A program made the translations under genes and the position numbers. The notes beneath the pieces were generated by a model, which saw only the letters and a list, made by a program, of their open reading frames with translations, was not told where the DNA came from and ran no database searches. A stretch of DNA of 64,000 nt, from positions 27,095,188-27,159,187 of the forward strand of contig OZ025255.1 in the NCBI GenBank assembly GCA_964019135.1. Direction: 5' to 3'. Every line of letters starts with the position of its first letter. Position 1 is the first letter of the stretch. This document shows, piece after piece, positions 2,138-54,719 of this stretch. Origin of the DNA: Arenicola marina. Taxonomy: Eukaryota; Annelida; Polychaeta; Arenicolidae.

Positions 2138-5100
2138 ATGGATACCAATATTCTGCGCAACGACCAGGAGCCGGAGGCTGGTTCCTATGACACCGGCCTC
2201 AGCAACATGAACCTGGCCGTAACCTTCCTTAACCTGGCTGCCGTGGTGTCTGCAGCCATAGGTGAGGTCCATGTGGTTATATGCAACGTGCTGTGTCGAA
2301 TCATCACCAATTGCAGAAATTCAGGGAAATCTGCAACACTTGGCACCGGTTGCATAGATCTACTCTATATTCCAAATAAAATGTCTTTGATTACTTAAAT
2401 AAAGTATGTAATAGTGATAACACTTCTTACTTATTTAATTCACTATTAATTCACGAAATTATAATTGTTGTCATATGGCAGCAGTTAATAACTGTACCCA
2501 AACCTTGGGGCAGTATCGTATTCCACCGGAGTGAATTCCACATCACGAAAAAGGCAGAAACAGTTTTAAAAAAAAGTAAAAGCTATAGTCGACATAAAAC
2601 TATATTATATATACAGCAATCTATTATTCAAATGAATTATATCCAAGCATATACGGCGTATATGCTTTGATATAATTCATCGTGCACGGTGTACATTATA
2701 CACCGTGCACGATTTCCCGGCTTTATTTCTTGAACATTTTCGTTTTTCAGGATGTGTTTCCATGGAGACTCCCACATCCCACGGCGGCCATCTTGTGGCG
2801 CGTCACATGATCCACATGACCATGGCCCTCACCGCCTATTGGCTGTACGGCCAGGCGCTGGCGTACGGCGTCACCCAACAAGGGAACCCGTTCCTGGGCT
2901 GGGGCGGCTTCCTCTCGCTGGGGCCTTCCGAGGGTGGTGGGGAGGGTGGCCGTGAGGGTGGCGGGGGGCAGGGTGGCTTGTTCCAGGCCGATACCAGCTT
3001 GGTCACCTTGTCTGTCGCTCTGGCTTCCACTGGTAAGACGTCAGGCCAACAAAAAACGTTCTTCTAATTGATCAGTCAAAATATCAAATATTCTTCCATC
3101 ACCTGATCATAAATAATAGTTTGCACTTTGTGAACTGGGAGGGAGTCACAGTGGTCTTGGTAACGTAATTGACTATAATTAAACAGGGCCGTTTCATCCT
3201 TTCACATAGTCTTAAGCTGCTCGTGTCGAAGGGTTTCTCCGCCAGACTACCCCATGTAGGCGTAAATCTCAATCTAGTCTTGCACTATATTTAACATGGT
3301 ATTTAGTTATTTCCAAATTTAATCGTGGCCAAGGAACAATGCGAACGGCAAATAAAATAATTCATGGATAAAGAAAAATAAATAAGTAAATAAAATTCGT
3401 CGGCAACCTCTAATGCAAACAAATGCTGCAGTAAGACGCGACAAATAATACACTGTCGTCGCTTATAGTTACTTGCGGGGCCGGCTCGCTAGCTCAGTGG
3501 GTTAGAGCGCTCGCCTTGAGTGCTCTGGCCCCCTGAGAGCCTAACGACACGTGGATCGGTGTTTCGAGCCCTGCTGTGGTCATGTTTGTGTGGTCGGAAG
3601 ATAAAAATCCCATGCATGTCCTTCGCAAAGAGTAGGGGTTACCCCACGGACATGGCTCCACTCTTTCTTCCTTCTCCCATTTTACGCGATATGACCAAAA
3701 AAGGTTAAAGCGTCCTGAATATACAACCAACCATACTTATTTTCAGGGTACGTGACTCACAGCAGCAGACTGGCGGTAGCTGTGCTCTGGCCCAACGTGG
3801 CGGTGGTGGTTCTCTGCCTGCCCATCCACTGGGTCCTCAGTGACGGCGGGTGGCTGCGAACCCTGGGCGTGGTCGACCTGGGAGGGGCGGGGCCTTGCCA
3901 CGTGGTGGGCGGGATATCAGCCCTGGTCATCTACACCTACCTCAGTCTGGGTTCCAGCGAGCTCCGTCTGAGTGGGACCCCTGCTCGGGATGTCATCGGG
4001 GGCAGTTCTGCAAGGGCTGAGTTTACCTCTCTGTGCGCCTTCTGGTATGTATATGTCTCAGGTTTGTCACCCTACGCGCTCTGGTATGTATGCCTCAGGT
4101 TTGTCACCCTCCACGCTCTGGTATGTATGCCTCAGGTTTGTCACCCTCCACGCGCTGGTATGTATGTCTCAGGTTTGTCACCCTTCTTGCTTTGGTATGT
4201 ATGCCTCAGGTGTGTGCCCCTCCACGCGCTCTGGTATGTAGGCCTCAGGTTTGTCACCCTCCACGCTCTGGTTTGTGTGCCTCCGGTTTGTGCCCCTCCA
4301 CGCGCTCTGCTATGTATGTCTCCGGTTTGTCACCCTCCACGCTCTGGTTTTTATGCCTCAGGTTTGTGCCCCTCCGCGCTCTGGTATGTCTGCCTAAGGT
4401 TTGTCACCCTCCGCGCTCTGGTATGTATGCCTCAGGTTTGTCACCCTCCGCGCTCTGGCGTTATACCTCGGGTTTGTCACCCTCCACGCTCTGGTATGTA
4501 TGCCTCAGGTTTGTCACCCTCCGCGCTCTGGTATGTATGCCTCAGGTTTGTCACCCTCCGCGCTCTGGTATGTATGCCTCAGGTTTGTCACCCTCCGCGC
4601 TCTGGTATGTATGTCCCAGGTTTTTTCACCCTCCACGCTCTGGTATGTCTGCCTCAGGTTTGTCACCCTCCGCGCTCTGGTATGTATGCCTCAGGTCTGT
4701 CACCCTCCACGCTCTGGTATGTATGCCTCAGGTTTGTCACCCTCCGCGCTCTGGTATGTATGCCTCAGGTTTGTGCCCCTCCGCGCTCTGATATGTAAGA
4801 AGCAAGTACCATAAGGAACTGTTTTAATATATATTTAACCTGTGGTGCATTTGTACTGCCATCCTCTGAACATTGCTCGCTTGCTCCATGAGATGGTCGT
4901 GGCTGTCGCCCTGATAAATGGTGCTGGCCAGCACAGCATGCATATAGTCTCGCCATCTGGTGGCCATTTGGGTAGTAACAATATTGTTACTCGACGAGAG
5001 GGAGTGTCGTCTGGGGCCGTACTCATAATCGCCACTTAGGTTACGCCACCAGACTTAGCGCTAAGTGGAAGATTTGTCAAGCGATTATCGGGTTTAAAAT

Positions 5101-8100
5101 ACATAAGTAGTCACCCAAAAAGTGGATTTTCTGAATTAAAAAAATGCTAACATTATATTGAAGACGATTTCATTAATCATGAACACCACCACAACGAGCT
5201 GGTGAGACTAAGACGAAAACGCACTTTTCGTGCGTAAGTCACGAGGGAATTATAAATACGGCCCCTGGTGCATCAAGTCAGTCAAAAACGCCGTAGTGTC
5301 AGCATAAAGAAATTTTGTTTGTGTCTTAAAAAGGGATAACATCGCAGTATACAAGTAAGTTTGGTATCATTAAAATTGCTCCATGTTGCTTTCACACGTC
5401 AATGATTTTCAGAGCAATCGCGGCAAATTCGAGGAAAATATGGGCCGAAACGTGAGTCTACGGCATTTATGACTTTGACTTTCGAGTCTATGCCATGTTA
5501 ACATGTTAGTTTCACATTTTCCTCTGTTCTAACGCGGAAGTAATGTCGATTTCTACTCAGGTGCAGTTCGTTGTGTGTGGCTTGCACGAGAACCCTGTCC
5601 ACAGCCTGGTACTCTGGCAACCACCTTGACGGGTAAGTCAGCAGACAGCTCTCGGAATGCCTTCGTTACCAGATCTTAAAGTTGCATATCGAGCTCTTTC
5701 CCGTCGAAGCTTAAGAGGTCAAAATACAAATAACAATCAGTCGTCTCATCATCCAATATTTCTTTTGTTATGCCACGCATACCGGAGTGCCAAGTCGTTG
5801 CCTTGCCCGTGATAACAATTTACCACAGTTCAACTTAGTGGTAATTGAATCACTTTAGGGATTTATTCTGATTATGTCCAATGTTTTTCTATCAAGGGAT
5901 TTCTTTTGTTTAAGCAATTATGCTGATGTTTTTGTGTTACTAAAAGTGTCAATTTTAGAATCGACATAAATATGGATTTCTTTCTCAATGTTGAATTAAT
6001 GAACTAATGTGTGGACGAATATATATTGTCTATTTTCGGTCATTTCTTGTTTCATGTTAATGTGTCAGTACAGCTCACCTGTTACTCCAAATACTTTTGT
6101 ATTTAAAACAATAATCGCTCTATATCCTATCATGGCAGATGAACAACTCATCTGGAGACGCATGGGAAATTAATGAACCAATATCTGATAGAGCATTTCA
6201 CATAGAACCTGTTTCCGACCTTCGCAGCGTGGTAAGCGGCGTGCTGTGTGCAGCGGGTGCCGGGAGCATCTTGAGTGTGACCACCAGGTAATCCACGATT
6301 AGCAATCCATCATCATAGATGGGACGATGATTCGATCCCAGCTGTGGCCATGTCTGTGTGGTCGCAGGATAAAGATCCCATGTCCGTCTTCGCAAAGAGT
6401 AGGGGGTTTTCCCCGTGGACATGGCTCCACTCTCCCTTCCATATCCCATTGACGCGGTATGACCAACAGTGGTTAAAGCGTCCTGAATAACCAATCAACT
6501 GATTATAGATGAGTCGTAATTGGCTTCACTGGGATGCTTTAACCTCTAGGTCATATCGACACAATGGAAATGGTCAAGGTAGAGTGGAGCCATATCTTCT
6601 ACATATTCTTCCACGCTGTTATCTGCTCCCTCGCTTATTGCACTCCTCTTATAAATTCTATTCGTAGTTAAATAAGCATATCGAGACCGTGCATGTGTCT
6701 TGTGTCTTGAGACAGACATCTTTCATTTATTGCGTAGAACCAGTTTAGATATCTAGAATGACACGAGGGTGTTAGTAGCATGAACGTTGTAACTAAAATG
6801 GAAGTAGTGGATGTAAAGTAGTAAGTCTGCTCTTAAGTTCAGTTGAAAAGAAGGCTGAGCTGTAGACAAACAGGTCATGGCGATGGAGGTCCCTACACAT
6901 ATACCTGGCGCATGCCTCATCTAAACCTGTTCATTGTCCCGGTATATTGTGTGACCCAATGTGGCTTTCATATTCGCAAAACCGAGCAAAAATACAACGC
7001 CATATTATGTTTCAATGCAAGCGAATTATAATGTTATAATTTAATAAATAAAATGAAATAATAAATAATGTTTTAAAATTGTTTAAATGTCGGATGTTAT
7101 AAAATTATGATGTGAAATTCAAATGTTATAAAATGCTAATGTTATGAAATGCTAAATTTATAAAATTCAAACGTTATAAATTTCTATTGTTATAAAAATT
7201 ATAATGCTGTAAGATTCTAATGTTAAAAAATGCTAATATTATAAAAGCATAATGTTATTAATTTCCAGTATAAAAACCAGACTTTTTTGTTGGCAGATGG
7301 ATCCTTGGGGGCGACTTGGGAATGGCGCATATCATGTTAGGAGTGTTGTCTGCCACTGTGTCCACCAGCGGTGCGCTTCTGTTCTTGTTAGAAGATCTTG
7401 CATGGACAATTCAATGGATAACTGCCAGTTAAAAATCGTTGTTATAATATCTGCCATCATTAATCAATAGTCTGTGCCATGACACAATATTTATCTACGA
7501 TAATAATAATGTAAATATATCCATGTCGTGCAAACACGTGTCTCTTTGAAATGCTTAGTATCGTTTCATCTTTTTCCTTCACGGTGTATGCAGCATCGTG
7601 TCGGTATGGCAAGCCGTATGCATTAATAAGTATTTATTGGCTATTTGCTGCTTCATTAGAAATGTGCAGGCTCGTCTCGGGATGGCAAGCCGTATGTTTT
7701 GATAAGTATTTAATGGTTATTTGCTGCTTCGAAGTTATTAGATGTGACACTTTGATTAATATTACATATGTAGCCAACCAAGAATCTTGTTTACATTTAT
7801 ATTGCGTGTAGCTATCGTTATTTGAGTATGGGTTTTTCTGAAATTTTTGTGTAAAGAATATGTAGAAACGCACCTTGCCTAACGACATAGTTTCAGCTGC
7901 TTAAATAAAATTTTTGCTGGTCTGGCACATTTCAGATCGTGTCGGTATGGAAAGCTGTTTGTCTTGATAAGTATTTAATGGCTATTTGCTGCTTCATTAG
8001 GAATGTGCGGCCTCGTGTCGGCATGGCAAGCGGTATCTCTTGACAAGTATTTAACGGCCATATTTTCCCCTTCATTCGGAGTGTTCAGCCTCGCATTGGT

Positions 8101-10526
8101 ATGGCAAGCCCTATGCCTTGACAAGTATTTAATGGTTATTTGCTACTTCATTAGGAATGTGCGGCCTCGTGTCGGTATGGCAAGCCGGTTGTCTTTATCA
8201 GTATTTAATGGCTATATTTTAACCTTCATTAAGAATGTGCGGCCTCGTGTCGGTATGGCAAGCAGTATGTCTTGATAAGTATTTAATGGTTATTGCTGCT
8301 TCATTAAGAATGTGCGGCCTCGTGTCGGTATGGCAAGCCGGTTGTCTTTATCAGTATTTAATGGCTATATTTTAACCTTCATTAAGAATGTGCGGCCTCG
8401 TGTCGGTATGGCAAGCAGTATGTCTTGATAAGTATTTATTGGCTATTTGCTGCTTCATTAGGAATGTGCGGCCTCGTGTCGGTATGGCAAGCCGTATGTC
8501 TTGATAACTGTTTTATGGCTATATTTGCTACTTCATTAGAAATGTGCGACCTCGAGTCGGTATGGCAAGCCGTATGTCTTAATAAGTATATAATGGCTAC
8601 ATTTTCTCTTTCATTAGGGTTCGGCCTTGCTTCGGTATGGCAAGCTGTATCTCTTGATAAGTATTTAAGGGCTAGTTGCTGCTTCATTAGGAATGTGCGG
8701 CCTCGTGTCGGTATGGCAAGCCCTTTGTCTTGATAAGTATTTAATGGCTATATCTTCTCCTTCACTAGGCGTGGACGGCCTCGTGTCGGTATGGCAAGCC
8801 GTATGTCTTGATAACTATTCAATGGATCTGTTCTCTCCTTCATCAGGCGTGTGCGGCCTCGTGTCGGTATGGCAAGCCGTATGTCTGGGCTTGGCTTCCA
8901 CCAGCGTCGCATTGATCTTCAATAGCTTGTTAGCGCATGTGAAGAATAAGGCACTCCGTGGTGAGCTTACGCTCCACCGCAGCCTCCCCCCCCCCCGCCC
9001 CACCCCAACCCCATAATATTCCAATTTCGCTTTTCTTCATGATGCTTGAATATAACACCGTTTCACCGTCCTCTATAATGTTCGAGAAATGACCCAGTTT
9101 CACTGTCCGCCATAATTTTCTGGAAGTGACCCAGTTTTGCTGTCCTCGATAATGTTCGGGAAATGGCCTAGTTTTAATGTCCTCTATAATGTTCGAGAAA
9201 TGACCCAGTTTCACTGCCCTATATGACGCTCGAGAAATGACCTAGTTACTCTGTCGTGCAATGACCTGGTTTCTCTGTGCCACAGTGCTTCTGGCAGTGG
9301 AGGTTGGCGCCGGCTTGTTGGGTGTATTAGCCGTGGGGGTGGTTTGGCCGCTGATCCCACGACGACAGTACCCTCTGGGCCTCATCTCCACAACTCAGGT
9401 ACATATCTGCCATTGATTATATCATTATTTGCACATGGTACAGCGCTTCATGCAGTTCGACGGGCGTTTATTCTCCTAAATATAACAAATAGTTCAGCAG
9501 CCGAAGCTATCGGTCTAAACAGAAACAATGGAGACAGATAATTAGGGCCAATTCCGTTTGAGGACTCGTGTTCACTTTATGAAATAAAGCTACGTGAGTA
9601 GCATGTAAAGGAATGGTTTGCGAAAAAAAAAACATAATTAGGGAAATATGTATCTTACTAATAAACCCTGGATAGGTAGTTTAATATATAAATGCTATTC
9701 GGTGGGCATTATGGGTGACTTTAACTGATTTCCGCCTCCCTCCTAGAGTCACGTGTGGCAACAGATGGGTCTGCAGACACTCGAGCTCATCACCTTGGGT
9801 GCCTGGGCAGCGGTGACGTCATTTCTCTTCCTGCTCACGCTGGACGCCTGTGTAGGAGTGGCGCCCTCTATGCGAGGAGTGGCCTCTGTGACGCCGAGCG
9901 CCCCTGGGTGGTCAAGACGTCGCCTCTGCTGCCTGCCGCTAGGTCACGGCTCGAGACAGGCGGAGGATTCGGCCCACATACTTCTGTCGGCGGCCCCATC
10001 CACCGCCTCCACCGGGGCCTCGGCCTACCCAGGAGATGCCTTCGGGAGTTACCCGCACCCGGGGAGGGATTCGTCCCCCCAGTGGCCGCGGTTGGAGGGT
10101 GGGCCGAGCACGTCCCCCCCATCGCCCAGCCTCCTGTCGCAGCTGACCTGTTGTTCTTCTTTACCTTGTCTCCAGGCTCCGAGGCCACCTGGTGACGTCA
10201 CAGGTGTGCGTTACGTCATCAACGACGCGGCCGACCCGGGGACCGGACATGCAGGTGACGTCATCTTCCTGTCCGACGACAATGACCTGGCGCTGGCCGA
10301 GCTCTGCGACCAGCTGCAGCGGTCGGCCGGGTCGCCGCTGTCGGGGAGTAGGAACTGGGACCCGGTCGCCAGGGAGCGTGAACGTGGCGACGCCTCGCTG
10401 GCTGAGTCACCCACCCTGGCGGTGAGGGGCACTGAGGGGTCCGGGGCCACCCCTCCCGGCTCCACGTGGCCCCTAGATGGGGCGTCTTCACGGGAAGTGA
10501 TAGTGGATGTACATCCGCACTACTGA
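2138..10526 (+). CDS. Amt: Amt-type ammonium transporter, nine exons, divergent
   Basis: Proposed exons: 2138-2261, 2751-3032, 3747-4044, 5561-5632, 6228-6287, 7297-7370, 8847-8960, 9286-9398, 9747-10526. Every intron is GT-AG, every phase matches, and the total of 1917 nt gives 638 residues plus stop. The family is recognised by AYWLYGQALAYG (residues 70-81), the signature HWVLSDGGWLRTLGVVDLGG (163-182) running on to GPCHVVGG, LGMAHIMLGVLSATVSTSG, and QQMGLQTLELITLGAWAAV in the last membrane segment. Family members conduct ammonium across membranes as trimers. D179 and H187 align with AmtB D160 and H168. The site of the second pore histidine (AmtB H318) reads AVEVGAGLLG, so E347 stands there. 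The N-terminus is short. The tail after residue about 415 is long (about 220 residues) and low in complexity; a pyrimidine tract and AG near 10176 could mark a further intron there. The start ATG has A at -3 and G at +4. ATTAAA at about 10640 may be the poly(A) signal. The family call is firm; transport activity is not shown. Confidence 0.85.
2632..2711. repeat. two abutting palindromes in Amt intron 1
   Basis: The first palindrome (2632-2680) has 24-nt arms, ATGAATTATATC at the outside and CATATACG at the centre, with one mismatch and a single-base centre at 2656. The second (2681-2711) has perfect 13-nt arms CGTGCACGGTGTA and TACACCGTGCACG with a 5-nt centre. They touch at 2680/2681 and end 40 bp before the exon 2 splice site. 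Either could form a cruciform in DNA or a hairpin in pre-mRNA. Confidence 0.85.
3478..3733 (+). mobile_element. tRNA-derived SINE at the end of Amt intron 2
   Basis: Same family as the copy at 791: head CTAGCTCAGTGGGTTAGAGC, box B-like GTTTCGAGCCC, and tail CCTGAATATACAACCAACC. The tail ends about 13 bp before the exon 3 acceptor AG (3745-3746), so the usual branch-point zone of that splice site lies in SINE sequence. Confidence 0.8.
4045..4796 (+). repeat. 37-39-bp minisatellite in Amt intron 3
   Basis: About 20 copies of a unit that can be written GTATGTATGCCTCAG followed by GTTTGTCACCCTCC and CGCTCTG. The array starts right at the exon 3 donor (TTCTG before GTATGT). Every unit restates that donor (CTCTG then GTATGT) and also carries an acceptor-like CCTCAG. 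The unit is not a multiple of 3 yet is free of stops in all three + frames, which explains the long open frames here; they are not taken as coding. Confidence 0.85.
6322..6501 (+). mobile_element. 5'-truncated SINE in Amt intron 5
   Basis: Begins at the box B region (GATTCGATCCCAGCTGTGG) and keeps the full body and tail of the SINE family. Near-identical 10-mers (ATCATAGATG at 6312-6321, ATTATAGATG at 6502-6511) look like target-site duplications. It lies only 34 bp after the exon 5 donor. Confidence 0.7.
7020..7262 (+). repeat. AT-rich short tandem repeat in Amt intron 5
   Basis: Degenerate repeats of about 20 bp based on AATGTTATAAAATTCTAATG run up to about 35 bp before the exon 6 acceptor. 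There is no coding potential. Confidence 0.6.
7562..8846 (+). repeat. 78-bp array copied from the intron 6/exon 7 junction
   Basis: About 14 copies of a 78-bp unit precede Amt exon 7, with an interruption near 7735-7915. Each unit holds the exon 7 acceptor with its pyrimidine tract (CTCCTTCATTAG), then the first about 35 nt of exon 7 (TGCGGCCTCGTGTCGGTATG), then GTATGTCTTGATAAGTATTT in place of the rest of the exon. Because 78 is a multiple of 3, the exon frame stays open through many units (26-residue repeat CGLVSVWQAVCLDKYLMAIF and so on). The true exon is the last copy, the only one running on into GGGCTTGGCTTCC and a GTGAGC donor. Confidence 0.85.
9030..9275 (+). repeat. degenerate 40-45-bp array before Amt exon 8
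   Basis: Five or six degenerate units built on TTCGAGAAATGACCCAGTTT followed by CACTGTCCTCTATAATG run up to the exon 8 acceptor, whose own tract reads ATGACCTGGTTTCTCTGTGC. The last unit therefore grades into the splice site. Confidence 0.65.
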
Positions 10527-10639: not shown

Positions 10640-10868
10640 ATTAAAGCGCTCGCTTTGGGTGCTCTGGCCACGTGAGAGCCAAACGGCACGTGGATCGGTG
10701 ATTCGCGCCCCGCTGTGACCATGTTTGTGTGGTCGCAGGGTAAAGATCTCTTGTCCTTTTTTGCAAAGAGTATGGGTTAACCCGAGGATATGGATCTACT
10801 CTCCCTTCCTTCTCTCATGGACGCGATATGACGAAAAGTGGTCAAAGCGTCCTTAATGTACAACCAAT
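10640..10868 (+). mobile_element. 5'-truncated SINE at the left edge of copy A
   Basis: Starts at TAAAGCGCTCGCTTTGGGTG, just after box A, and continues through the family body and tail CAACCAATCA. It is the counterpart of the SINE at 21855 and marks the left limit of homology between the two duplicated blocks. Its first bases include an ATTAAA that could end the Amt transcript. Confidence 0.75.
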
Positions 10869-10879
10869 CATTTCCATTA

Positions 10880-11500
10880 ATAAGTATTCTAGAAGGACAA
10901 ACGCGACTCCTTTTTGCGAAGGCAGACGAAGTTCTAATGGAAACCTCGTTCAACAACAGCAAATGGTCTACAACAATTAATTAATTAATTAATTATTTAA
11001 CGACGAAAGTGCATGAGCAAATTTTAAGTGTAAATTAAATATCATTGTTGTATTGACGCGGATATATGTAAAGGAATGAGCAATATTAAAATATAGTAAG
11101 ACGAAAATGTGTTTGACTCTTCGTACATTCCATGAATATAAAGATGTTATGTGGAAGAGTTAAAGTCTGGTTCTGTCATAGGACTTATATTACTAGTTAT
11201 ACTGCGTCCTACACTGTCACCATGTTCTAACGCGGATGTGAGTAGGTTGAGGGGCTAGAGCGAGTTAAGCAAAAGGTTTACAACAAACCCTACTTTCTAT
11301 AATGATTACAGTCAAATCGAGTTCGTTTATCCGCGACACGAAACCGGAAATTGCGCAATCGCGTCCTGCGCAGGACCAACGGGGATGTAGGCCAAAGGTC
11401 ATAAGTGGTTTCTGCGCCCAGTTAGAATGCATGCAATTGATTTCAAATACTGCGAATCCATTTCTAATTTCACTGGCGACCTGGATCTGTATTTACAATC
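10880..11500. other. non-coding spacer
   Basis: AT-rich DNA with a short TTAATTAATTAA run at 10977. No exon or RNA gene is visible. The part up to about 11200 has a counterpart in copy B (from about 22070); 11200-11690 does not. Confidence 0.4.
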
Positions 11501-11503
11501 CAA

Positions 11504-11692
11504 GGGCGGATCCATGGGAGGAAAAACGCTGAGGCGGCGTGCACCCCCCCCCCCCAGTCGCAAGTCTTAAGTGGACCCCTCCCTCCAGTCGTCGTTTTGT
11601 CTAGAGGCGCCCGCCACCCCCCCCCCCCCCCACCCCCCCACCCGGGTCGCAAATTTGGACCTCTCCTTTTTGAAATTCCTGGATCCGCCCGT
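11504..11692. mobile_element. small TIR element (GGGCGGATCCA ends)
   Basis: Inverted ends AGGGCGGATCCATGG (11503) and CCTGGATCCGCCC (11680-11692) enclose about 160 bp with two C-rich runs. The matching site in copy B (about 22370) keeps only a right-end-like CCTGGAGCCGCCCG. It is short and has no open frame, so it is probably a non-autonomous DNA transposon; superfamily unknown. A related left end (TGGCGGATCCAGGAATTT) lies at about 32911. Confidence 0.55.
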
Positions 11693-12359
11693 ACAATCTG
11701 TGGTTATGCACGGCTTATGTATGAAAACTCCACCCTCTAAATGCCTTTTTAGATGGGATGAACCTGCTTGGGATGATTGTACCATGTAACTTGGTGGCTA
11801 TGACCATGATACACTTTTTTAATGCGCAAGTTACGTAATAATTATAATTGCGTGACTAGACAATCATTTTGCTGAGGTACGAACTCCTGACCCTATCTGT
11901 AAATCTCATTTTACGACTGGTTGGAATTTTACAATCAACAGAAAAAAGCCTTCAAGGGATATTAGACAGTGTACATCCATCTTCGTTCAATTTAATTACC
12001 AGTCAATATTATTGAAATAAATTATGGCAAATATATTACAGATAAAGTCAACATTTTACGCTTCCCTTATGCCTGGTAATGCAAATGTAAAATTTGTCGG
12101 ACAAAGGTTATTATAGCTTAGTGAACTGAACCCATGTTAGATATCTTACTTAAACCGAAAACATTTTCCATTAAGCCCAACAGACTCTTATTACACAATG
12201 GGTTGAAGTAAGTTGCATTCACACCTGTGCTACATAACAGTGGAGATAAACGTTTAAAGCATCTGCACTATAGCCAACTGGAGCTATAATATATCATAAC
12301 TGCGTATTTATTCATAAGAACGATCGAATATACAGACTATTATGAATGATTTGGCCGTG

Positions 12360-15300
12360 TCACACCACAACGCGTTGCCATACCAAGGACGCGACGAGCG
12401 AGTACAACATTGTCACCACACCACGTGGCCCTACCACGTGGTATACCCCTGTCGCCCTAGCAGTGGTCACGTGATCGCCTAACGTGACTCCCGTATTCTG
12501 TTCTAGTGTTGTGATTTGAGTCGCTGTCGCCATGGAGACAGTTGCCCTGGCGGCTGATGGCTTCAGGGAGCAGTTGGTCTGTACTGTGGGCTGTTCGCAC
12601 GGCAGGGAATCGACCCTGGCCACCCAGCGGCCGGGGTGGCAGGCGTTGCTGGTCTCGGTGACTCGCCTGATGGCCGGTGTCCGGGCGTCAGGGTGGGAGC
12701 AGACTTTGATTTTGCTAGGCAACACCAGACCCACCTTTAAAAGACAACCACATCAACTCCTGTATGACTATAGTTTTGGTAAGTGAATATACATAACTAT
12801 CATTAATGGAAAGTGTTCACGTTCGACCGGTGTGGTATGCGGGATTGTCCCCTATGCGGAGATGTTCCCCCTGTATCTAACATAATATTGGCACCGTGCG
12901 AACACATGGAGCGGAGAGGGTCTCAATATTATGTATTTTATATAAGGGGGACAGCTGCGCATGGGGGGACACTTCCGCATGTCACACCGGCCGTAAGGAT
13001 AACGTGAAACATGATTTCACCAATTACAAAAATAATTAGTTTCGTCGTTTTTAAATTTCTCTCCAACGTACATAGGCATCTGTAAGGTTTGTTCCTCTCG
13101 GTTTGGTCCACATGATCTGGTCGAAGTTGAGCATGATGAAGGTTCTGTTGCCGTCGCTGGTTACGACTCCTTGCATCGTGTTTGGCTGGAACCCCAAGTA
13201 TATATATGTGAGGATGGGTGAGGCAGGCCAAGCGATGTGGTCGTAACCCGCATCACAGTCACACCCAATATCGCACGACCCTTCCCTTCACGTCATCCAA
13301 TAAACCAATGAAATATATGTCATCAAATTGGATGGCCATGAAAACGGGCAAACAAACACGTCATAATTACGAATATTATCATTGTACAAAAGTTAATATT
13401 AATTATTACAAATTTGTCAGAAAAAACGATGTGGTGCATCCAAATGCTATACTAGTGAGAACATGGCAAAATGCCATAGCAGTGACCCGGCCTATTTACA
13501 CCTCGCGCAGTCTTGTTTCTACGGAGAATTGTCATTAGTAGTAACGGGAGCTTGGCTGTAATATTACCGGAGTGTGCCTCGTGCCGCCGACGTAGGTCAC
13601 GAGGTGGAACGTGACAACGAAGACCCACGTAGCACGGAAGTCCTGGTGGAGTGGCCAGAAGGCGTCTGTGACGTCACGCGTGGCCCTCGTGACGTCACGC
13701 TCTGCATGCCCATTGCGGAAAAACACTTGACTGCGGCCCATGATGGAAGCATCAGCGAAGGTCCAGACCGCCAGTACGCTATACCCCGGAGCCCCGCTCT
13801 CAAAGACAACTCGACCAGATGCGCTGATCTAACACAGAGAATATTACTATGTAAATATCGCAAAGAGTAGGGGGGTACCCCCGGGGACATGGCTCCACTC
13901 TCCCTTCCTTGTAACACTGACGCGATATGACCAAAATTGATTAATAAAGCGTCCTGAAAATACAACCAATCAACCAACTATGTAAATATGCACGGATATA
14001 TGTTATATCAAGTATATATATGCACCAATACTAAACACAATATCTATGGTTCGATTCTGCAAAGGTAGGTTGTTACATGTAGACAGTTTATAGGCAATAA
14101 TACGACAATAGCGCCAGTTTGCGGGGCGTTAGGCAATTATATTGCCCCGCCATCAAGCTGTAGCAGCCCACCAATTTTCATTATCGGCCCGAGGCCGCTA
14201 GGCCGAGGGCGGATAATGAAAATGACAAGAAAATGCCTAACATCATGCAAAACTCGCGCTATTACTATTATTAGGAGTTGAATCTAAATTTAAGGTGTTG
14301 ACTTCTTTTTTTCTTTCTTCTTCTCCTTTGGTTTAATTTCAGCATGCAACGACCAAAGTAAAGCATTTTGGCACTGATTGTCCACAAATCGCAAGCCTTT
14401 CCACATAGGCCTAGTTGGCCAGTTGCCTTTTCATACCATGTAGATCGTTGCCAAGAAACATGGCACGTGCAACGAGGCAACTGGGCATGCAAGCGGGCTA
14501 TTTAAAGCTATAACTACAATTCTTTGGTGCGTGACGTCATGTTTCATTTTTCTATGCAGTGTCGCTATGGCAACGATTGTCGTTTGCATGGGCAGCAGGG
14601 CGGTTCGGGTCAGAATACAGCATTTTAGCAGCCTTCAGGTTTTAATGCTGTACTAGTTAATTAACATAGATCTAACCACCAACTCGTAATAATAGAGTGT
14701 TTGCACATATGTTCAAATATTTGCACATGTGGTTCAATTCTGCACATATGTCCAAATCTTTTGCACATTTGTACAATTCATTTGAACATGTGTACAATTA
14801 TTTAAACATATTTGAACAAAGGTGAAATTAAATTACATATAAGTAGAATTTATTTGGACATACGTTTATTCTAATTAGACATATTTATTTGCACCCATGT
14901 TCAATTCTGCACATATGTTCAATTCATTTGCGCATATGTGCAATTGAATTAAACATGTCTCTAATTCTGTTGAGCGCGCATTAACGTTATCATCAATTCA
15001 AGTGTGGCGAATGGTATGATCCAGATGTTGCATTTATACCGCTCTTTTCATTGGTTTATGCAAATGTCTTTAAATACATGTTTAAATACATGGAGTCCGA
15101 CAGACACATGGGGTCTGGCAGACACCTTTAGGTCCGACAGATACATGGCGTCCGACAGATACATGGGGTCCGACAAATACATGGGGTCTGACAGACACCT
15201 TTGGGTCCGACAGATACATGGGGCCCGACAGATACATGGGGTCTGACAGACACCTTTGGGTCCGACAGACACCCATGGGTCCGACAGATACATGGGGTCC

Positions 15301-16487
15301 GACAGATACAGGGGGTCTGACATACACCTATGGGTCCGACAGATACATGGGGTCCGACAGACACCTATAGATTCCGACAGATATATGGGGTCCGACAGAC
15401 CCCAACATGTCAAATATGTTGGACATACGTACCATTTCAAAATTAAAAGGCATCAATAATTTAACCGTGAGTAGGACGACGGATGTGAGGCATTTCCTGT
15501 CAAAATGGAGGCTGCTGCTGGCTTGTATTAAGCACCACGAACATCAATAGGTGATATATATAACGATTAAAACTTAACTATTCGTGAGACCATGCCCTTG
15601 CGGAGAGAATATTAACATGATCCGACTTCACATCCCGGAGTTTTCTTCAGACCCTTGAGTGTCTTTCACAGAATTAGACACATATGTGCAAATGATTTGG
15701 AAGTATGTGCAAATATTTGGACATTTCCTAATACGTGTGCACCGCTGGCTCAGTATTGTGCGGTCAGAGGCAGGTGCAACCTGCAGGTTCCAACGTGACC
15801 CGGTCAACATGACGCCCTGGGTAGCCCAGTCGGCCTGAGCATCGCACCTCTGATGGTAAATACATCGCAAAGTGATATTTTGTAGATGCAACCCAGTGGC
15901 GGATCTAAGAGAGCGGGTAGGCAAAACTCACCCTTCTCAAGCAAAGGGATCTTAGGGTCCGTTGAAGTCGAAATTTAGTCAATGACCCTCATTGAGGAAG
16001 AAGTCAACATCAGGGCCATCTTAGGCGTAGACCAACCACCCCCGGCACCGGCTGTCACGCCCCCCCCCCACCCCACTGGTCGTAACGTTTTAGAGATCAA
16101 AAAGCCCCCGACCCCCTACCGGTCACAATCCCCCTCCTTTCCAAAATTCTTAGATCTTTGATCCTAGGTAGGGTCCTAAAAGCGAAAAACCACGTGGTTG
16201 AGACTGGCTGTGAAGGCACCGAACGCGCTACCTTCTTGGACCAGATTACACCCAGCAACTGAACGACTTTTCTCTGTGATGCTTACATGTGCTTTAATCG
16301 CTGTTATGTTCATGAAGGGAATATTCCTTGTTAATTTCATGGCGCTAAGTTGTTCTCTGGGTTGATTTAGACGAACGCGATCACCTACGTCAGTCCCATG
16401 AGGCCAGAGCAACCAGTCCTCCTCAGTGTCACCAGACAATATGCAGCTCATATGCAGCACTGTAGCAAAGAAATAGTGACTTCTCAT
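12360..16487 (-). CDS. secreted NIDO-domain (alpha-tectorin-like) protein, copy A
   Basis: Proposed exons on the minus strand: 16487-16287, optional 15849-15781, 13798-13568, 13185-13072, 12734-12360. All junctions are phase 0, giving 329 residues (306 without the optional exon). Exon 1 has a signal-peptide-like start (MRSHYFFATVLHMSCILSG) and WPHGTDVGD, the usual YPYG..GD opening of NIDO domains. Exon 2 gives VWTFADAS (usual APFWADVD), RATRDVTDAF and FRATWVFVVTFHLVTYVGGT. Exon 3 gives PNTMQGVVTSDGNRTFIMLN and FDQIMWT. Exon 4 gives RTPAIRRVTETSNACHPGRW, matching the end of the alpha-tectorin NIDO domain, then two more cysteines and a hydrophobic C-terminus (GVVTMLYSLVASLVW) that might be a membrane or GPI signal. 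NIDO domains occur in extracellular-matrix and gel proteins (nidogen, tectorin, mucin-4). This protein is hardly more than one such domain. AATAAA on this strand lies at 12312-12307, about 50 bp past the stop. Confidence 0.78.
13859..13976 (+). mobile_element. 3' fragment of the SINE with perfect 13-bp duplications
   Basis: Holds only the SINE's 3' half (GCAAAGAGTAGGGGGGTACC to CAACCAATCAACC). The 13-mer ACTATGTAAATAT flanks it exactly at 13846-13858 and 13977-13989. It lies in the intron upstream of... rather just outside NIDO exon 2 (13798), inside intron DNA. The same insertion is present at 24675, so it predates the block duplication. Confidence 0.8.
14098..14278. mobile_element. fold-back element with nested hairpins
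   Basis: Outer arms AATAGCGCCAGTTTGC and GTTAGGCAATT on the left pair imperfectly with GTTAGGCATTT and AATAGCGCGAGTTTTGC read on the other strand from the right. Inside, ATTTTCATTATCGGCCC and GGGCGGATAATGAAAAT form a second stem around a GC-rich centre. A third short stem (GGCGGGGCAATA) lies on the left. It is found only in copy A, within the extra DNA of that block, and looks like a small non-autonomous DNA element. Confidence 0.55.
14695..14960 (+). repeat. degenerate CACATATG array
   Basis: Variants of TTTGCACATATGTTCAAAT recur roughly every 20-25 bp. Related sequence lies at 15670-15720 and, in copy B, at 24905-25030, so the array has been partly lost in copy B or expanded in copy A. CATATG is an E-box, but the array is intronic and AT-rich. 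Confidence 0.6.
15085..15405 (+). repeat. minisatellite with a GGGTCCGACAGATACAT unit
   Basis: About 18 units of 17-18 bp, in variants GGGTCCGACAGATACAT and GGGTCTGACAGACACC, lie within the NIDO copy A intron. They are absent from copy B. The open frames on both strands here come from the repeat. Confidence 0.8.
15890..16175. mobile_element. probable degraded TIR element (TGGCGGATCTAAG end)
   Basis: Starts with CAGTGGCGGATCTAAG and ends with a partly complementary TTAGATCTTTGATCC. It contains a C-run and a second C-rich stretch (CCCCCGACCCCCTACCGG). The counterpart in copy B is at 25190-25490, where a 25-bp stretch (CCGTTTTTCTCGTCAACACC region) differs. It resembles in outline the element at 11504. 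It lies in NIDO intron 1. Confidence 0.4.
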
Positions 16488-16540
16488 AACCGGATTGTTC
16501 AATATCACTTTTCACAACGACGAATTAGATCTGCACCAAT

Positions 16541-16660
16541 GTTGTCCTGGTGCAGCTGTTGTCCTGGTGCAGCTGTTGTCCTGGTGCAGCTGTTGTCCTG
16601 GCGCAGCTGTTGTGCTGGTGCAGCTGTTTTCCTGGCGCAGCTGTTGCCCTGGTGCAGTAG
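16541..16660 (-). promoter_or_regulatory. CAGCTG E-box array upstream of NIDO copy A
   Basis: Six CAGCTG hexamers spaced 17 bp apart, in the unit GCAGCTGTTGTCCTGGT, begin 54 bp before the start codon at 16487. CAGCTG is an E-box bound by several bHLH factors. The same array with six hexamers stands at the same place before copy B (25853-25962). It could be promoter or 5' untranslated DNA; binding is not shown. Confidence 0.5.
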
Positions 16661-16699
16661 GATCCAAGTCGCTCCGTTGCTTGTGGCTTTAGTCAGTGG

Positions 16700-17780
16700 C
16701 GATGTGGGTGTCGTATGCCAAGTGACAAAATGCAGGCGATGGATGACGTAGGATGATCAGCAATAGTTGTCTTGACGGACCTTGTTGGAGCAGTGACCGC
16801 TGTGATTTGATGAAGTCATCAATAACACATCAAGGGATTGTGTTTGACTAATCCATTGCTCCTATGTTCATATCCTGATTATATTGACAGGTAGAACTAC
16901 CCAGTTTCACCGCCAGTAACTATGGTTTACCACCGGCTAATTCAATTCGTAAGCTACGAATACCCTGTTAATACCTTCCCAAACCTGTCAGCTGGATTCA
17001 TTATACGTATTTACCAGATCCTCTACAGGAGGCCGCAAAATCGTAAATAGTCGGCATTGCTAATGACGTGACACATCTTTCTATATCTATAAATACATCT
17101 ATAGATGTGTACAGCTGTCAAAGGTATACAGCCTGCAAGTCATAGAACAATGGATATGATCTGCCACAATCCACGCAGCACAAAAGACAGATGTAACGTG
17201 ATTTACCATGACACCAAGGACGTCTCTTTGTTGACATGAAAGGAATGGGAATGATATGTGAGTGTATTAAACCAGTATTGTCCGCAGAAACAAAGGCTAA
17301 TCTTGGGCATTGAAAACGTTCGATGAAAAAACGAAAACGGTTGACGCGCAGGACCAGAATGACTCGCAAAGCTCTCCCTATAACAAAAGTGTATTAATTA
17401 AAGCATTATAGCGGCCTACAGGGAGTAAATGTCATCATTCACCTGACGGGCACATCTGCTCTGTATCCCTTTAATCAGTCACCAAGGCTAAAACACCCGC
17501 CGGGGTGTGTCGGTCGGTACACGGCCATTGCCAGTGTCACCTCTGTGTGCTGCTGGGCGGTCTGAGCCCCGTAGAATGCCCACGGGACGCCCCAGCCAAC
17601 AGGTTAACGTCATGACAACGTCGACACAACGTTATTTTTTGTTGCGATAACCTTTTTTATTGAAGTTTTCCGAACGTTTTCAGATAACGTTGTCAGACAT
17701 TCAGCCCAGTATTAAAATTGTGCCTTATGTGAAAAACAAATGCGTATATGATGAATTAATTACAAGCATGACTGTCAAAG
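16700..17780. other. region upstream of NIDO copy A, no gene seen
   Basis: Moderately conserved with copy B (26010-27080). It contains a GC-rich patch at 17490-17600 with the palindrome ACACCCGCCGGGGTGT. No exon is recognised on either strand; it may include distal promoter DNA of the NIDO gene. Confidence 0.35.
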
Positions 17781-17859
17781 ACAGATGTTGAATGGCCATC
17801 GTCAGGCTAAGTTCGTGGATGGACCATGTAGGTCAATGGCAATCACGATGCCAATTAGT

Positions 17860-18790
17860 TTACGTATTGGGCCTACATGTGCATTGTATAGGGCTATGCA
17901 GTTCTCGCGATCGGGCCGCAAGACTTCAGTTTTGGGGACAAACAAACACACGTGCTCCATGTTGTAGTGTAGGCAGCTACACGTCAATTTCTTTCCAGGT
18001 TTATTCTAAAGCCTATAAGTACCATTTCAATAAACATGGCTATGAGAGGTTTACGTTAAAATATTTAGAGGCGATGAAGCGCAGAACTTTGGGAATATAC
18101 AAGGAAAAATCCGTCTTCAAAACACTCGAAAGCTAAAAATAGCGTTCTAAATTTAGCCCTGCAACCACACTTTCGCGAGTTCCATAAAACAGCGTGTGAC
18201 GTCACAGAGTTTCACGTGCCTCCGCGGTAACAAAAATGGCGAGAGCAAGTAACAACACACTGATGCGTCATTAAACCACATGGTAAAGGTAACATAAGAC
18301 GGGTTGGATGTTTTGGTATCACTTTTGGATCACGAAATTTTTTTCATTCTTTGTAAGTTGTCTGTTGGAAGCGTTGCGCCAACGTTGTCACCGGGGAGAA
18401 TCCGTGTGACGTCATAATGTCTCGTTTTCGTAGGAAATGCAAAAAAAACGTTAGTTTCTCAGCCGTGTTGTCCCGTCGTAACAAATATTCGTCATTGTGA
18501 GGGCGCAAATGAATGAAATATATGTCATCTATCCGTTTTGTGCAGCTATATTTCTTAAATATTCTTAATCATATAGCTAGGCCTTCCGCGATGGACCCAC
18601 CCCTCGGCGCCTGGCTCTTGCGCAGGTAGTTTGGTTCCCTGTCTCCGTCTTTGCGTAACATATACGTCACGACTACGTCACAGATAATCAGGATACCAGT
18701 GTGCGCAGAGATTCTAAACTCGTTCCGAACACGTGCTTCGTGTGCTTGTCCCCAAAATAACCAAACCGGAAATTATGGCGAACGAGACTT
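17860..18790. repeat. imperfect inverted repeat of about 90 bp arms
   Basis: The left arm (about 17885-17960) has ATAGGGCTATGCAGTTCTCG and then TTTTGGGGACAAACAAACAC. The right arm (about 18720-18815), read on the minus strand, has ATAGGGCTATAAAGTCTCG and then TTTTGGGGACAAGCACACGA in the same order. This suggests either the ends of one old element or two copies in opposite orientation. It is repeated in copy B (27180-29490), where a TIR element has landed between the arms. Confidence 0.45.
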
Positions 18791-18929
18791 TATAGCCCTA
18801 TATTGTGTTTGAATTTGGCTAATCGCCTGAATAGTTTTTATGCAAAAAAATTTCCCCCTAAAGGGGACAAGTCAGACAAACCACATCTTGCTTGAAACAT
18901 AACATTAGTATTTGGGGGCGGGGACTATA

Positions 18930-19105
18930 TTGATCAAGGTCACACATTTAAGGTCAAGGTCCTGCGTTCAAGGTCAAGGTCACGCGTTCAATGTCAAGGT
19001 CACGCATTCAAGGTTATAGTCGCGCATTCAAGGTCAAGGTCACCCGTTCAAGGGAATGGTCACGCATTCAAGGGCAATGTCACAGCAGGTCAAGGTCACG
19101 CATAA
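18930..19105 (+). repeat. 20-bp array of TCAAGGTCA motifs, copy A
   Basis: Units of about 20 bp (TCAAGGTCACGCATTCAAGG) contain five exact TCAAGGTCA nonamers and several variants. TCAAGGTCA is the extended half-site bound by monomeric nuclear receptors of the ERR and NR5A types. The array is kept in copy B. No role is shown. Confidence 0.65.
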
Positions 19106-20160
19106 CTCCGTTAATATTGCGTTTAGAGATCCGCTGTTTAGGAGTATTCTTCAGATCGAGGCAAAAACGAGTTATTGGCTCAAACTTGCGGATACTGAAA
19201 GTTTTTCGGGTAATCGGCCAATCAAAATTTAGCTTACGTTAACCTCTTGTCAAGTGGGGTTTTGAACTTTGGAGGTTAATATTTGAGCTTAGTTTGGCGG
19301 CTAGAGCGCTCGCAAGAGGTAAACCATTCCCTGCTGACGCTCCCATTATAAGTCAACGGTGATATCGACCGGCACTCCTTCGGGTTGCGATGGCCGCCGT
19401 TCGCTTAATGGCGACGCAAGAGAGTCGAAACTGGTTGCAAAAGACGGGCCAACATCAACTTGGGCTAGGAATTCGCATTCGCTTTTCCGCTATAAGGCTC
19501 CATAATTTAGCAATGATAAGTCTGAGAAAAGGGATTAGGGCGTGACCAAGCACACATAGAAAGTCGGAATTTTATCGTATTCGCTCGCAATGGCGCTCTC
19601 TATCTGGAAAAATAGCCCACGTTGAACAGCAGCATCCGGATCCTAGGGATCCAATAAGGGCTAAATTGCGCATTCAGCGAGCAATTTGTTACTGATAAGC
19701 TTTCAGTGGGCAATTTGGGCTGGAACGCCTTCAGATATCGACTTCAAAATTCAACAAGAGTTGCGGAGTGGTCCTCGTCAGGCCTAGTTTCGTAGATAGG
19801 CGATGTAGATCAGGGGTTATGGTCACAGGATTTTTGTTGTTGAAAAACAGCCCACAGAGCTCTATGTCGCATCGATACGCCGAACAACGAATGAGCGACG
19901 TTTCGGGTCTACAACTGGTAGAGAGTGGCGATGGGTTTTAACATGGTCGAAGTAGGCCCAAAACAAAACCCCGATTTTCGTCTTTCCTCTCAAGCTACGC
20001 TTGACGGATCTCCTTTGCATATCCTTTATGTCATTATATCAGTGTTCCTGTGTTCGTTTAGCCTGTACATCCATTAAAACACAATTTAATTTTCATGATC
20101 ATCATCACCATTATCATAATTATCGTCTTATACTAGAGACCGGGCTACAGCATCAAATAT
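19106..20160. other. non-coding part of the duplicated block
   Basis: No host exon is visible. The segment 19750-19990 (TAGATAGGCGATGTAGATCA to AGGCCCAAAACAAAACCCCG) directly precedes LINE coding sequence in both copies and may be the LINE's own 5' part or an older repeat. It resembles DNA at 17795-17840 (ATCGTCAGGCTAAGTTCGT). Confidence 0.35.
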
Positions 20161-20167
20161 TCGGGGC

Positions 20168-21290
20168 TTGTTGTGCCAGATGGCGATATTCGGGGTGTTA
20201 AGAAACCAGGATACATTTATGTTTTACGTAACATGTCAATGTCGAAAATATGTCCACCGCCTCGTAAACAGCCGGAGGAAAGAAACAGACCGGACTGGTG
20301 GGATAGCGACTGCGACGCTGCTAAAAGACAAAAACTCTCGTCTGTATCTTGTCACAGGGACACTTGCTCCAACCCAGATCTTGAGAGATACCAACGCGTT
20401 GTGCATGGCTTTAAAAATGTATGTGCTAACAAGAAAGCATCGCGAGAGAGGGAACTTTGCAATGAACTATCTCGTGTGGGAAGTGAATTTTCTTGTGGAA
20501 ATTCTTTAAAACTTTTCAACATAAAGATAATGTGTCTCGATGTATATGACCTTCGGAATGGTACGAATACTATTACTAAATAACGCACCAGACACTGCAT
20601 CTGAATTCTTTGCTAATGAAGCTGCACACAAACTAGAAAGCCACAGTACTGTCTGTCGCGATTGTACACAGAACGGCCCAAATATATTAAATGATGACCT
20701 TGAACCGGAGGAGATAGAGCAGGTTGTTAGCAGCCTTCCAAATGGAAAAAAGGCGGGGTCTGATGGTCTTCTCTTTGAAATGATTAAATGCTCGTTCGAT
20801 GTACTACTGGATCATTTGTGCAACCTCTTCAATGTAAATATGACCACGGGTGAATTTCCAGACAACTGGTGTAAGGCGTTAATCAGTCCGATCCCGAAGG
20901 CTGGAGCAAAAACTGATGTTAATAATTATTGAGGGATATCGCTCCTGTCTGTCTTAGGAAAATTATTTACCAAAATTCATTTCTAATAGATCATGTGAAT
21001 GGCCAGAAATTAATAACAATATTAACGAAAGTCAAGGTGCTTACTGCAAAGGCAGGTCAACGTGTGATAATATATTTACTCTATACGCTATAGCGCAGAA
21101 ATACCTCAGTAAGAAGGAAGGACGCTTTGATTGCGCTTTCATCGACTTTAGTAAAGCCTTCGATTCGGTACCTCACGCAAAGCTGTTTCATATTCTCATT
21201 ACACAAGGTGTTCATGGAAAAATTTCTGTCTCGCTGCAGGAATTCAAACCATTGAGGACGAACATCACTTCATCTGTATCTGTCCCCATA
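20168..21290 (+). mobile_element. decayed LINE with reverse-transcriptase pieces
   Basis: Translated pieces in order: RPDWWDSDCDAAKRQKLSS (linker before the RT), then VSSLPNGKKAGSDGLLFEMI, FPDNWCKALISPIPKAG and NNY-stop-GISLLSVLGKLFTKI (usual NYRGISLL, the R codon now TGA), then FIDFSKAFDSVPHAKLFHIL (RT motif A). The YxDD part is missing; the sequence jumps to GIQTIEDEHHFICICPH, a C-terminal LINE motif. It is therefore 5'-truncated, frameshifted and internally deleted. Clade is not resolved beyond the Jockey/I/CR1-like group. Confidence 0.8.
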
Positions 21291-21614
21291 TGCATATGTC
21301 TTGATAAGTATTTAATGGCTATATTTTCTCTTTCATTAGGAATGTGCGACCTCGTGACAGTATGGTAAGCCGTATGTCTTGATAAATATTTAATGGCTAT
21401 ATTTTCTGTTTCATTAGGAATGTGCGACCTCGTGTCAGTATGGTAAGCCGTATGTCTTGATAAGTATTTAATGGCTACATTTTCTCCTTCATTAGGCGTG
21501 TGCTGCCTCGTGTCGGCATTGGCAAGCCGTATGTCTTGATAAATATTTAATAGCTATATTTTCTCCTTCATTAGAAATGTGCTACCTCGTGTCAGTATGG
21601 CAAGCCGTATGTCA
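21291..21614 (+). repeat. displaced copy of the Amt exon 7 junction array
   Basis: About four 78-bp units of the array seen at 7562-8846 (TTCATTAGGAATGTGCGACC, TATGTCTTGATAAGTATTTA). They lie 12 kb from the gene, between the LINE and copy B. The units vary (CGACCTCGTGTCAGTATGGT). The 25-mer region AATATTAACGAAAGTCAAGG is present on both sides (about 21020 and 21715), as if DNA had been inserted between two copies of it. Confidence 0.8.
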
Positions 21615-21854: not shown

Positions 21855-22050
21855 GGGCCGGCCCTGTAGCTCAGTGGGTTAAAGCGCTCGCCTTGGGTGC
21901 TCTGGCCACGTAAGTGCCTAACGATCCCATGTCCTTTTTCGCAAAGAGTATGGGTTAACCCGAGGATATGGATCTACACTCCCTTCCTTCTCCCATAGAC
22001 GCGATGTGACCAAAAGTGGTCAAAGCGTCCTGAATATACAACTAATCATT
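21855..22050 (+). mobile_element. SINE with internal deletion at the left edge of copy B
   Basis: Has a complete head (GGGCCGGCCCTGTAGCTCAG) that copy A's SINE lacks. It is missing the box B part: CCTAACG runs straight into ATCCCATGTCC. The body matches copy A, including the shared variant GGGTTAACCCGAGGATATGG. Confidence 0.75.
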
Positions 22051-23089
22051 TCCATAAATAACTATTCTAGAAGTACAAACGGGACTCCTTTTGGAAAAAG
22101 CAGATGAAGTTCAACTAGAAGCCTCACTCAACAACAGCAAATGGTCGGCAACAAATAATTAATTATTGAATTACATAAGTGCATGAGCAAATGTTAAGTG
22201 TAAGTTAAATATCACTGTTGTATTAACGCGGATATATGTAATGGAATGAGCAATATCAAAATATTGTAAGAAGAAAACGTGTTCGACTCTTCGTGCATTC
22301 CATGAATATGAAGATGTCAAGTGGAAGAATTAGAGTCTGTGTCATAGAACTTATACTATACTTATCCTGGAGCCGCCCGTACAATCTGTGGTAATGCACG
22401 GCTTATGCCTGGAAACTCGTCCTTCCCGGCAAAAAAACACAAAATATCCACCCTATAAATGTCTCTTTAGATGGGATGAATTGTACCTGATTGGGATGAT
22501 TGCACCATGTAACCTGGGGGCTATGACTATGATACACGTTTTAATGCGCAAGTTACGTATTAATTATAATTACGTGACTAGAGGATCAGTTTACTAAGAT
22601 ACGAACTCGTAAGCCTATCTGTAAATCTCATTTTACGACTGATCTGCATTTCACAATCAACAGAAAAAAAAACTTCAGAGGATATTAGTGTAAATCCATC
22701 TTCGTTCAATTTAATTACAGTCTATATTATTGAAATAAATTATTGCATTAATTATTGCATTAATGTATTAAAGATAAAGTCAACATTTTACGCTTCCCTT
22801 AAGCCTGGTAGGGCAAAAATAAAATTTGTCGAACAAAGGTTATCATAGCTAAGTGAACTGAACCCCAGGCAGATATCTTACTTAAACCGATGAAACATTG
22901 CATTAAGCCCAACAGATTCGTATTACAGAATGGGTTGAAGAAAGTTGCATTCACACCTGTGCTACATAACAGTGAAGATAAACGTTTAAAGCATCTGTAC
23001 TATAGCTAACTTGAACTATAATATATTCTAACTGCGTATATAATCATAAGAACGATCGTATATAGACCATTATGAATGATTTGGCCGTG

Positions 23090-25800: not shown

Positions 25801-25852
25801 AACCGGATTGTTCAATATCGCTTTTCACAACGACGAATTAGATCTGCACCAA

Positions 25853-25962
25853 TGGTGCAGCTGTTGTCTTGTTGCAGCTGTTGTCCTGTTGCAGCTGTTG
25901 TCCTGGTGCAGCTGTTGCCCTGGCGCAGCTGTTGCCCTGGTGCAGCTGTTGCCCTGGAGCAG
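25853..25962 (-). promoter_or_regulatory. CAGCTG E-box array upstream of NIDO copy B
   Basis: Six CAGCTG hexamers 17 bp apart begin 53 bp before the copy B start codon. The spacer bases differ from copy A (GTTGTCTTGTT, GTTGCCCTGGC) while the hexamers are all intact. Confidence 0.5.
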
Positions 25963-25999
25963 TAGGATCCAAGCTACGCAGCTGGTTGTGGCTTTAGTC

Positions 26000-27540: not shown

Positions 27541-27547
27541 GGAAGAG

Positions 27548-29614: not shown

Positions 29615-29733
29615 ATTGATCAAGGTCACGCATTTAATGTCAAGGTCACGCATTTAAGGTCAAGGTCACGCACTCAAGGTCAATGTCACGCGCTCAAGGT
29701 CAGGGTCACGCGTTTAATGTCAAGGTCACACAT
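29615..29733 (+). repeat. 20-bp array of TCAAGGTCA motifs, copy B
   Basis: Six exact TCAAGGTCA nonamers in six units. It is shorter than in copy A, with different linkers. Confidence 0.65.
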
Positions 29734-32408: not shown

Positions 32409-32550
32409 GGGACATCATGACGTATGCATGCTGGTCGTCACTGCCTCAAACTTGCCAAATAATGATGATTAATACTTTTGTGTTACGACTTTTCTACATA
32501 GCATTAAGAAGGTTTTGTTTTGGTGGCTAGTGTGTTGGGGTCGGTCGAGG

Positions 32551-54717: not shown

Positions 54718-54719
54718 TC

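Follow-up and report, generated by a model that had tools for sequence, protein, structure and literature searches.

Tandem duplications in this genome are probably seeded preferentially at splice junctions, mainly at donors, and sheltered in introns, so that the resulting arrays can be regarded as junction-born minisatellites. The window, the whole 64,000-nucleotide stretch of DNA analysed here (C8:27095188-27159187 in an 867 Mb assembly of 762 contigs, whose introns mark it as eukaryotic), holds an ammonium transporter (Amt) gene with three tandem arrays in its introns. These had been reported in a preliminary description of the window and are confirmed at that place by TRF and a nine-exon gene model. 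They had been presented as a trait of one Amt gene alone, which they are not: arrays also lie at exon borders of other genes in the same genome. The features discussed below are as follows.

2138-10526, plus strand: divergent Amt-like ammonium transporter gene (hand-built model of nine exons with consistent phases, an intact frame and a 638-aa product)
2138-2261, 2751-3032, 3747-4044, 5561-5632, 6228-6287, 7297-7370, 8847-8960, 9286-9398 and 9747-10526, plus strand: Amt exons 1-9
4041-4797, plus strand: intron 3 array (TRF; period 37, 20 copies), beginning at the exon 3 donor, with (GC)TCTG|GTATGT in the unit (the bar marks the exon-intron border)
7094-7265, plus strand: AT-rich period-16 array (TRF), ending 31 nt before exon 6
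7584-7737, plus strand: two units of older appearance, outlying from the rest of the intron 6 array (TRF and unit alignment)
7925-8846, plus strand: main intron 6 array, 12 units of 75-78 nt (TRF and unit alignment)
8847-8960, plus strand: exon 7, source of the intron 6 units (best-scoring acceptor; residues homologous in the C5 paralogue, with intron position and phase shared)
9060-9255, plus strand: intron 7 array (TRF; period 37, 5 copies), its end 30 nt short of exon 8
21295-21613, plus strand: four further intron 6 units, where the second copy of a segmental duplication has its left end

The gene product is a member of the ammonium transporter family (PF00909): it matches the profile at E 4.2e-19 and 69 bits (curated cut-off 23.2), and the match spans residues 36-416 and profile positions 10-377 of 399, which is most of the domain. 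A PDB sequence search gave no match at E 0.001. Exon 8 encodes AVEVGAG where the paralogues have PVHAVCG, and the second of two conserved pore histidines thus seems to be a glutamate in this protein, while the first is retained (GPCHVVGG, exon 3); these segments of exons 3 and 8 are what we take to be the pore-histidine motifs. Transport by this protein may be altered by the glutamate.

The clearest case of an array built from an exon border is intron 6, where TRF reports arrays at 7589-7730 and 7937-8886 with period 76-78. Fourteen units (two outlying and 12 in the main array) were cut out and aligned; they are 75, 76 or 78 nt long, and 76- and 78-nt units alternate, giving a higher-order period of 154 nt. 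A typical unit consists of 36-39 nt of intron with an acceptor-like TTCATTAG at its end, followed by nucleotides 1-39 of exon 7 and then a jump back. Over these 39 exon positions the unit consensus is identical to exon 7 at 37, and it repeats the acceptor region too, which bears out the claim that these units restate the exon 7 acceptor and its first coding bases. The real acceptor scores 8.35 on the splice-site matrix, the intron 6 decoys at most 6.1. Residue, phase and intron position at the start of this exon are the same in the C5 paralogue (AICTLVKPWEAF versus GVCGLVSVWQAV); in the C8 and C19 paralogues, too, the alignment begins from these residues. Since this exon start is common to the paralogues, the exon is older and the copying went from exon to array. 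For the same reason we rejected intron 6 as an intron born from a tandem array. Duplication seeded at the splice junction is well supported for this intron.

The other two arrays carry less exon sequence. The edge of the intron 3 array lies 4 nt within exon 3, and only about 4-10 exon bases are restated. The motif TCTG|GTATGT occurs 13 times across about 20 copies, and 14 of the 16 decoy donors listed score equal to the real exon 3 donor. Beyond TCTG, the match between exon 3 and the unit is not significant (36 of 1701 other positions of the coding sequence score as high). Of the statement that these units restate the exon 3 donor, the donor part therefore stands, whereas the exon tail is unremarkable overall. 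With units that begin at the border and each carry a donor, the array has the structure of a splice-donor minisatellite of the IFI6 type, and seeding at the junction is moderately supported. Intron 6, the strongest case in the window, is an array at an acceptor. The intron 7 array had been said to grade into the exon 8 acceptor. By eye, a degenerate last partial unit does extend into the exon 8 pyrimidine tract, but this tract is all that the two have in common and no exon 8 bases were seen in the array; here seeding is weakly supported. No exon sequence was seen in the AT-rich period-16 array before exon 6. Seeding at splice sites, as originally suggested, is thus carried by intron 6 and by the array starts at donors of other genes, to a moderate degree by intron 3 and weakly by intron 7.

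Exon borders of other genes were surveyed, with exons picked by profile score alone: 29 PF00909 hits (Amt and Rh-like; three of 32 rows were dropped, namely the window's own and two on the small contig C292) and 45 of 77 myosin hits, 183 kb in all. PF00209 hits were left out. By a fixed rule these 74 exons yielded 63 donors and 60 acceptors, defined by HMM hits and hand-entered splice-site matrices rather than by RNA; the score or distance rule excluded 11 donors and 14 acceptors. For donors, the last 15 exon bases were searched for in the next 1.5 kb of intron with at most two mismatches, and for acceptors the first 15 bases were searched for upstream. Expected counts of 15-mer recurrences were based on array density and unit lengths, with a GC-matched intron hazard giving a second expectation for these and for array starts. 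A kinesin set (27 of 133 hits, in six genes chosen for compactness) was taken afterwards.

At 12 of the 63 Amt/Rh and myosin donors, against 1.4 expected, the exon-terminal 15-mer turns up again in the adjacent intron (Poisson P 3e-8, a value that, like the other Poisson values of the survey, ignores the relatedness of paralogues). Upstream of acceptors such 15-mers recur at 3/60, with 1.3 expected. Control 15-mers from mid-exon recur in 0.4% of 1499 tests and those from introns in 28% of 1478. For two of these 12 donors the rule picked the second donor copy, and both still count when the first is used; another (C12:34187954) has a single recurrence, and counting a paralogue pair on C8 once leaves 11/62. 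Array starts give a similar picture, with 19/63 donors having one (4.7 expected). Their density is 3.2-3.7 per kb in the stretch that begins in the exon, 60 nt before the donor, and ends 30 nt beyond it, and 0.5-0.7 deeper in the intron. The hazard of a first array is likewise raised near donors (19/63 within a 90-nt span versus 29/386 beyond, Fisher P 2e-6), with a ratio of about 4 when array-occupied sequence is allowed for. When 19 gene clusters are bootstrapped, the edge ratio at donors is 5.1 (3.3-8.6).

At acceptors, arrays are less strongly in excess and mostly lack exon sequence. Array edges were found at 11/60 (4.6 expected, P 0.008), most of them in the intron: the peak is in its last 30 nt (4.4 per kb), and density inside the exon is low (0.6-1.1). 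The bootstrap over 18 gene clusters gives an edge ratio of 2.2 (0.5-4.8). First arrays nevertheless come early at acceptors as well (13/60 versus 31/401 beyond), which blurs the statement that donors are mainly concerned. The kinesin set agreed in direction with the main survey, although its donors were not significant, either for array edges (3/18, 1.35 expected; none of the three with exon content) or for exon 15-mers (1/18, 0.4 expected). At kinesin acceptors, array starts number 2/15 (P 0.32) and exon 15-mers 3/15 (P 0.005). When kinesin is pooled with the main survey, exon-containing arrays are present at 13/81 donors (1.8 expected) and 6/75 acceptors (1.7 expected), and the difference between donors and acceptors is no longer clear (P 0.15).

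These counts have to be weighed against a reading without any hot spot, in which tandem duplications arise everywhere, more so in GC-rich DNA, and those that span a junction can hold exon sequence harmlessly. Array coverage is indeed very high, at 34% of the surveyed bases, and arrays are GC-richer (53%) than other non-exon sequence (44%) and close to the exons in GC content (57%). GC matching cuts the donor-edge ratio from about 4 to 2.5, so GC accounts for part of the junction preference, and the non-significance of the kinesin donors alone points the same way. What makes this reading rather unlikely in our estimate is that donors keep an excess after GC matching, both in array starts (19 against 7.6, P 4e-4) and in exon-containing arrays (12 against 2.6, P 2e-5), and that edge density falls so sharply 30 nt past the donor. 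We infer that splice junctions, above all donors, are favoured for array birth in this genome.

Preferential seeding at junctions probably proceeds as follows. A short tandem duplication would straddle the splice junction, with one breakpoint in the exon and one in the intron, and the array would expand by unequal exchange or slippage. The real exon copy would be held by selection, while the extra copies would land in the intron and be spliced out. On the donor side, the first copy adjoins the exon and would stay in use, the remaining copies being silent. On the acceptor side the copies precede the real site and would be encountered before it, so that fewer exon-containing arrays would survive or their acceptors would decay. 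As to the cause of the preference, transcription- or splicing-linked breakage is our guess. A bolder version, possible but put forward only tentatively, makes 5' splice sites mutational hot spots for minisatellite birth through a process tied to transcription or splicing, with about one donor in five carrying an array of its own exon-donor border and first-donor choice by the spliceosome keeping tens of perfect decoys silent.

Individual donor arrays show the arrangement in detail. Read by eye, the C5 Amt paralogue has arrays at five of six donors; in four of these the unit includes exon sequence or the border of exon and donor, and the fifth array (period 49) begins about 11 nt downstream. 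In this gene a first repeat of 40 nt is followed by units of 33 nt, which fits outward growth from the exon. A myosin donor array (GDPIGGHINNYLLEK|GTAGGC) has 25 copies and a kinesin one (TTGLRLK|GTCAGT) 37, and in Amt on C8 a TIVSG|GTACGT donor array is present in two paralogues. The arrays in myosin, kinesin and Amt on C5 and C8 have, like that of intron 3, the structure of splice-donor minisatellites of the IFI6 type. In the four donor arrays printed out, the order is exon tail, donor, short intron and exon tail again, which is what a tandem duplication with breakpoints on either side of the junction would be expected to leave. Two Rh-like donors whose exons end similarly have units with unlike intron parts and periods of 50 and 36, which suggests separate births. 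At a myosin locus (L078 1-1551, C2, minus strand), an array of about 100/203 bp includes the exon end and donor, and this exon end recurs 14 times within the next 1.5 kb. Two kinesin donor arrays recognised by eye (L084 2038-3308 and L085 4559-4800) do not satisfy the mechanical rule and were left uncounted.

Such arrays might instead function as decoy splice sites, for example as tandem U1-binding sites that protect or delay the intron. Dozens of tandem donors are intact, and in 14 donor arrays (four of them, namely C5 exons b and f, kinesin L084 and intron 3 of the window, included by eye, and a 15th case of three units left out) mean consensus at the GT columns is 95.5%. For the exon-derived part of the units the figure is 95.9%, however, so GT is kept no better and selection on decoy donors was not seen over these 14 arrays, with no sign of it either way; we consider a decoy function quite improbable.

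Equally, the units could be spliced in alternatively to give a transporter of variable length, as had been proposed for this gene together with the claim that the intron 6 units keep the reading frame. Precedent exists in human IFI6, where, according to an excerpt of PMC4526556, downstream repeat units act as splice donors. Among seven upstream intron 6 acceptors tested, the two nearest (8691 and 8769) retain AG and reach exon 7 in frame and stop-free, and would add 52 and 26 residues, respectively. The other five are out of frame or run into stops, and AG is missing from the aligned acceptor position in six of the 14 units, two of which open their blocks. For codon positions 1, 2 and 3, variation is 0.09, 0.12 and 0.13 over the 14 units and 0.05, 0.11 and 0.08 when only the 11 better-preserved units are taken, with no clear third-position excess in either set; in the latter set variability is somewhat lower in the half derived from the exon than in the intron half (0.08 vs 0.14). 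Judging by homology, an insert would sit in a membrane segment. Donor-array periods are divisible by three in 5/15 cases, the chance level (the list was compiled by hand), and the idea that tolerated periods follow a frame-preserving rule was dropped. With units of 75, 76 or 78 nt and stops among them, the claim of a kept frame fails, the array was rejected as a coding tandem repeat, and a source of length-variable protein appears highly improbable.

The preliminary description had named the same arrays at many unrelated loci as an observation that would speak against it. None were found in the 867 Mb assembly, where counts of matches are lower bounds: the intron 3 and intron 7 units matched no other locus, and the intron 6 unit matched its own locus and one four-copy array 12 kb away. 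A tandem segmental duplication of about 10 kb (window 10741-20644 versus 21919-31433, with main pieces 84-93% identical by self-comparison) has this second array (21295-21613) at the left edge of its second copy. From this position we read it as a duplication relic, not a second birth; exons 7-9 were not seen beside it and were presumably lost. A reverse-transcriptase fragment adjoins the relic, and transposition of the array by a retrotransposon was considered and rejected, as no empty site with joined flanks was found among the 40 of 86 first-look candidates scored: pieces of the left flank match many places, none past base 129 of 132, and the right flank matches only itself. That a dispersed satellite or mobile element landed at splice sites by chance is hardly credible, the retrotransposon fragment notwithstanding, given the lower-bound count of one locus and one nearby relic, the segmental-duplication edge and the fact that the exon-containing arrays of the survey have units built from their own exon.

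The window contains other repeats. One has nine copies (785-1016, 3478-3734, 6325-6499, 10641-10871, 13858-13977, 21855-22049, 24674-24795, 32146-32415 and 37253-37519) with a tRNA-like stretch near the start (GCTCAGTGGGTTAGAGCGCTCGCCTTGAG) and is probably a SINE family. A 45-bp array of 22.6 copies at 33597-34614 leaves three minus-strand frames open for 344-361 codons. Two large and very uniform arrays, at 55984-58087 (80 bp, 26 copies, 93% match) and 53926-54718 (57 bp, 14 copies, 98%), suggest recent expansion. Separately, very long open frames had been reported with some myosin hits; the C7, C11 and C20 stretches analysed contain no such literal stop-free frames, the longest being 246 codons.

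In the titles and abstract starts of the open-licence literature, with few subscription papers covered, we found no report of a genome-wide donor excess of arrays, and in a Daphnia tandem-repeat survey (PMC3152781) the words 'splice' and 'donor' are absent. Single splice-junction minisatellites are already known; their prevalence appears new in the literature searched. If arrays are born at junctions genome-wide, they offer natural experiments on how the spliceosome chooses among tens of near-identical sites, and a test of whether transcription or splicing makes DNA breakpoints non-random. The birth of a minisatellite could then be traced to a known ancestral sequence, the exon, which is usually hard for intronic repeats, and the arrays would be raw material for intron lengthening and intron gain.

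A minisatellite with multiple splice donor sites was reportedly described in human IFI6 (6-16) by Turri et al. 1995. Its unit is reportedly 12 bp, and what is reported of that system matches the present arrays in having tandem units at an exon-intron border, each with a usable donor. It differs in concerning one gene and a short unit whose extra donors are used, whereas here the units are about 30-100 bp, many genes are involved and the donors are putative. Human introns from tandem arrays are said to have been reported by Zhuo et al. 2007. Intron gain by tandem duplication is also the subject of PMC4974935, as far as an excerpt of it goes. Both resemble the present case in that tandem duplication copies splice signals, but in those studies, to the extent of that excerpt, introns were created, whereas here intron 6 predates its array. 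Finally, the excerpted part of PMC2812944 deals with human genes in segmental duplications that carry internal tandem repeats at exon-intron boundaries. These too are minisatellite units that span exon-intron boundaries, of about 30 bp in that excerpt, where they are tied to recent primate paralogues and novel intron formation; the arrays analysed here lie in introns of conserved genes and show an excess of starts at donors.
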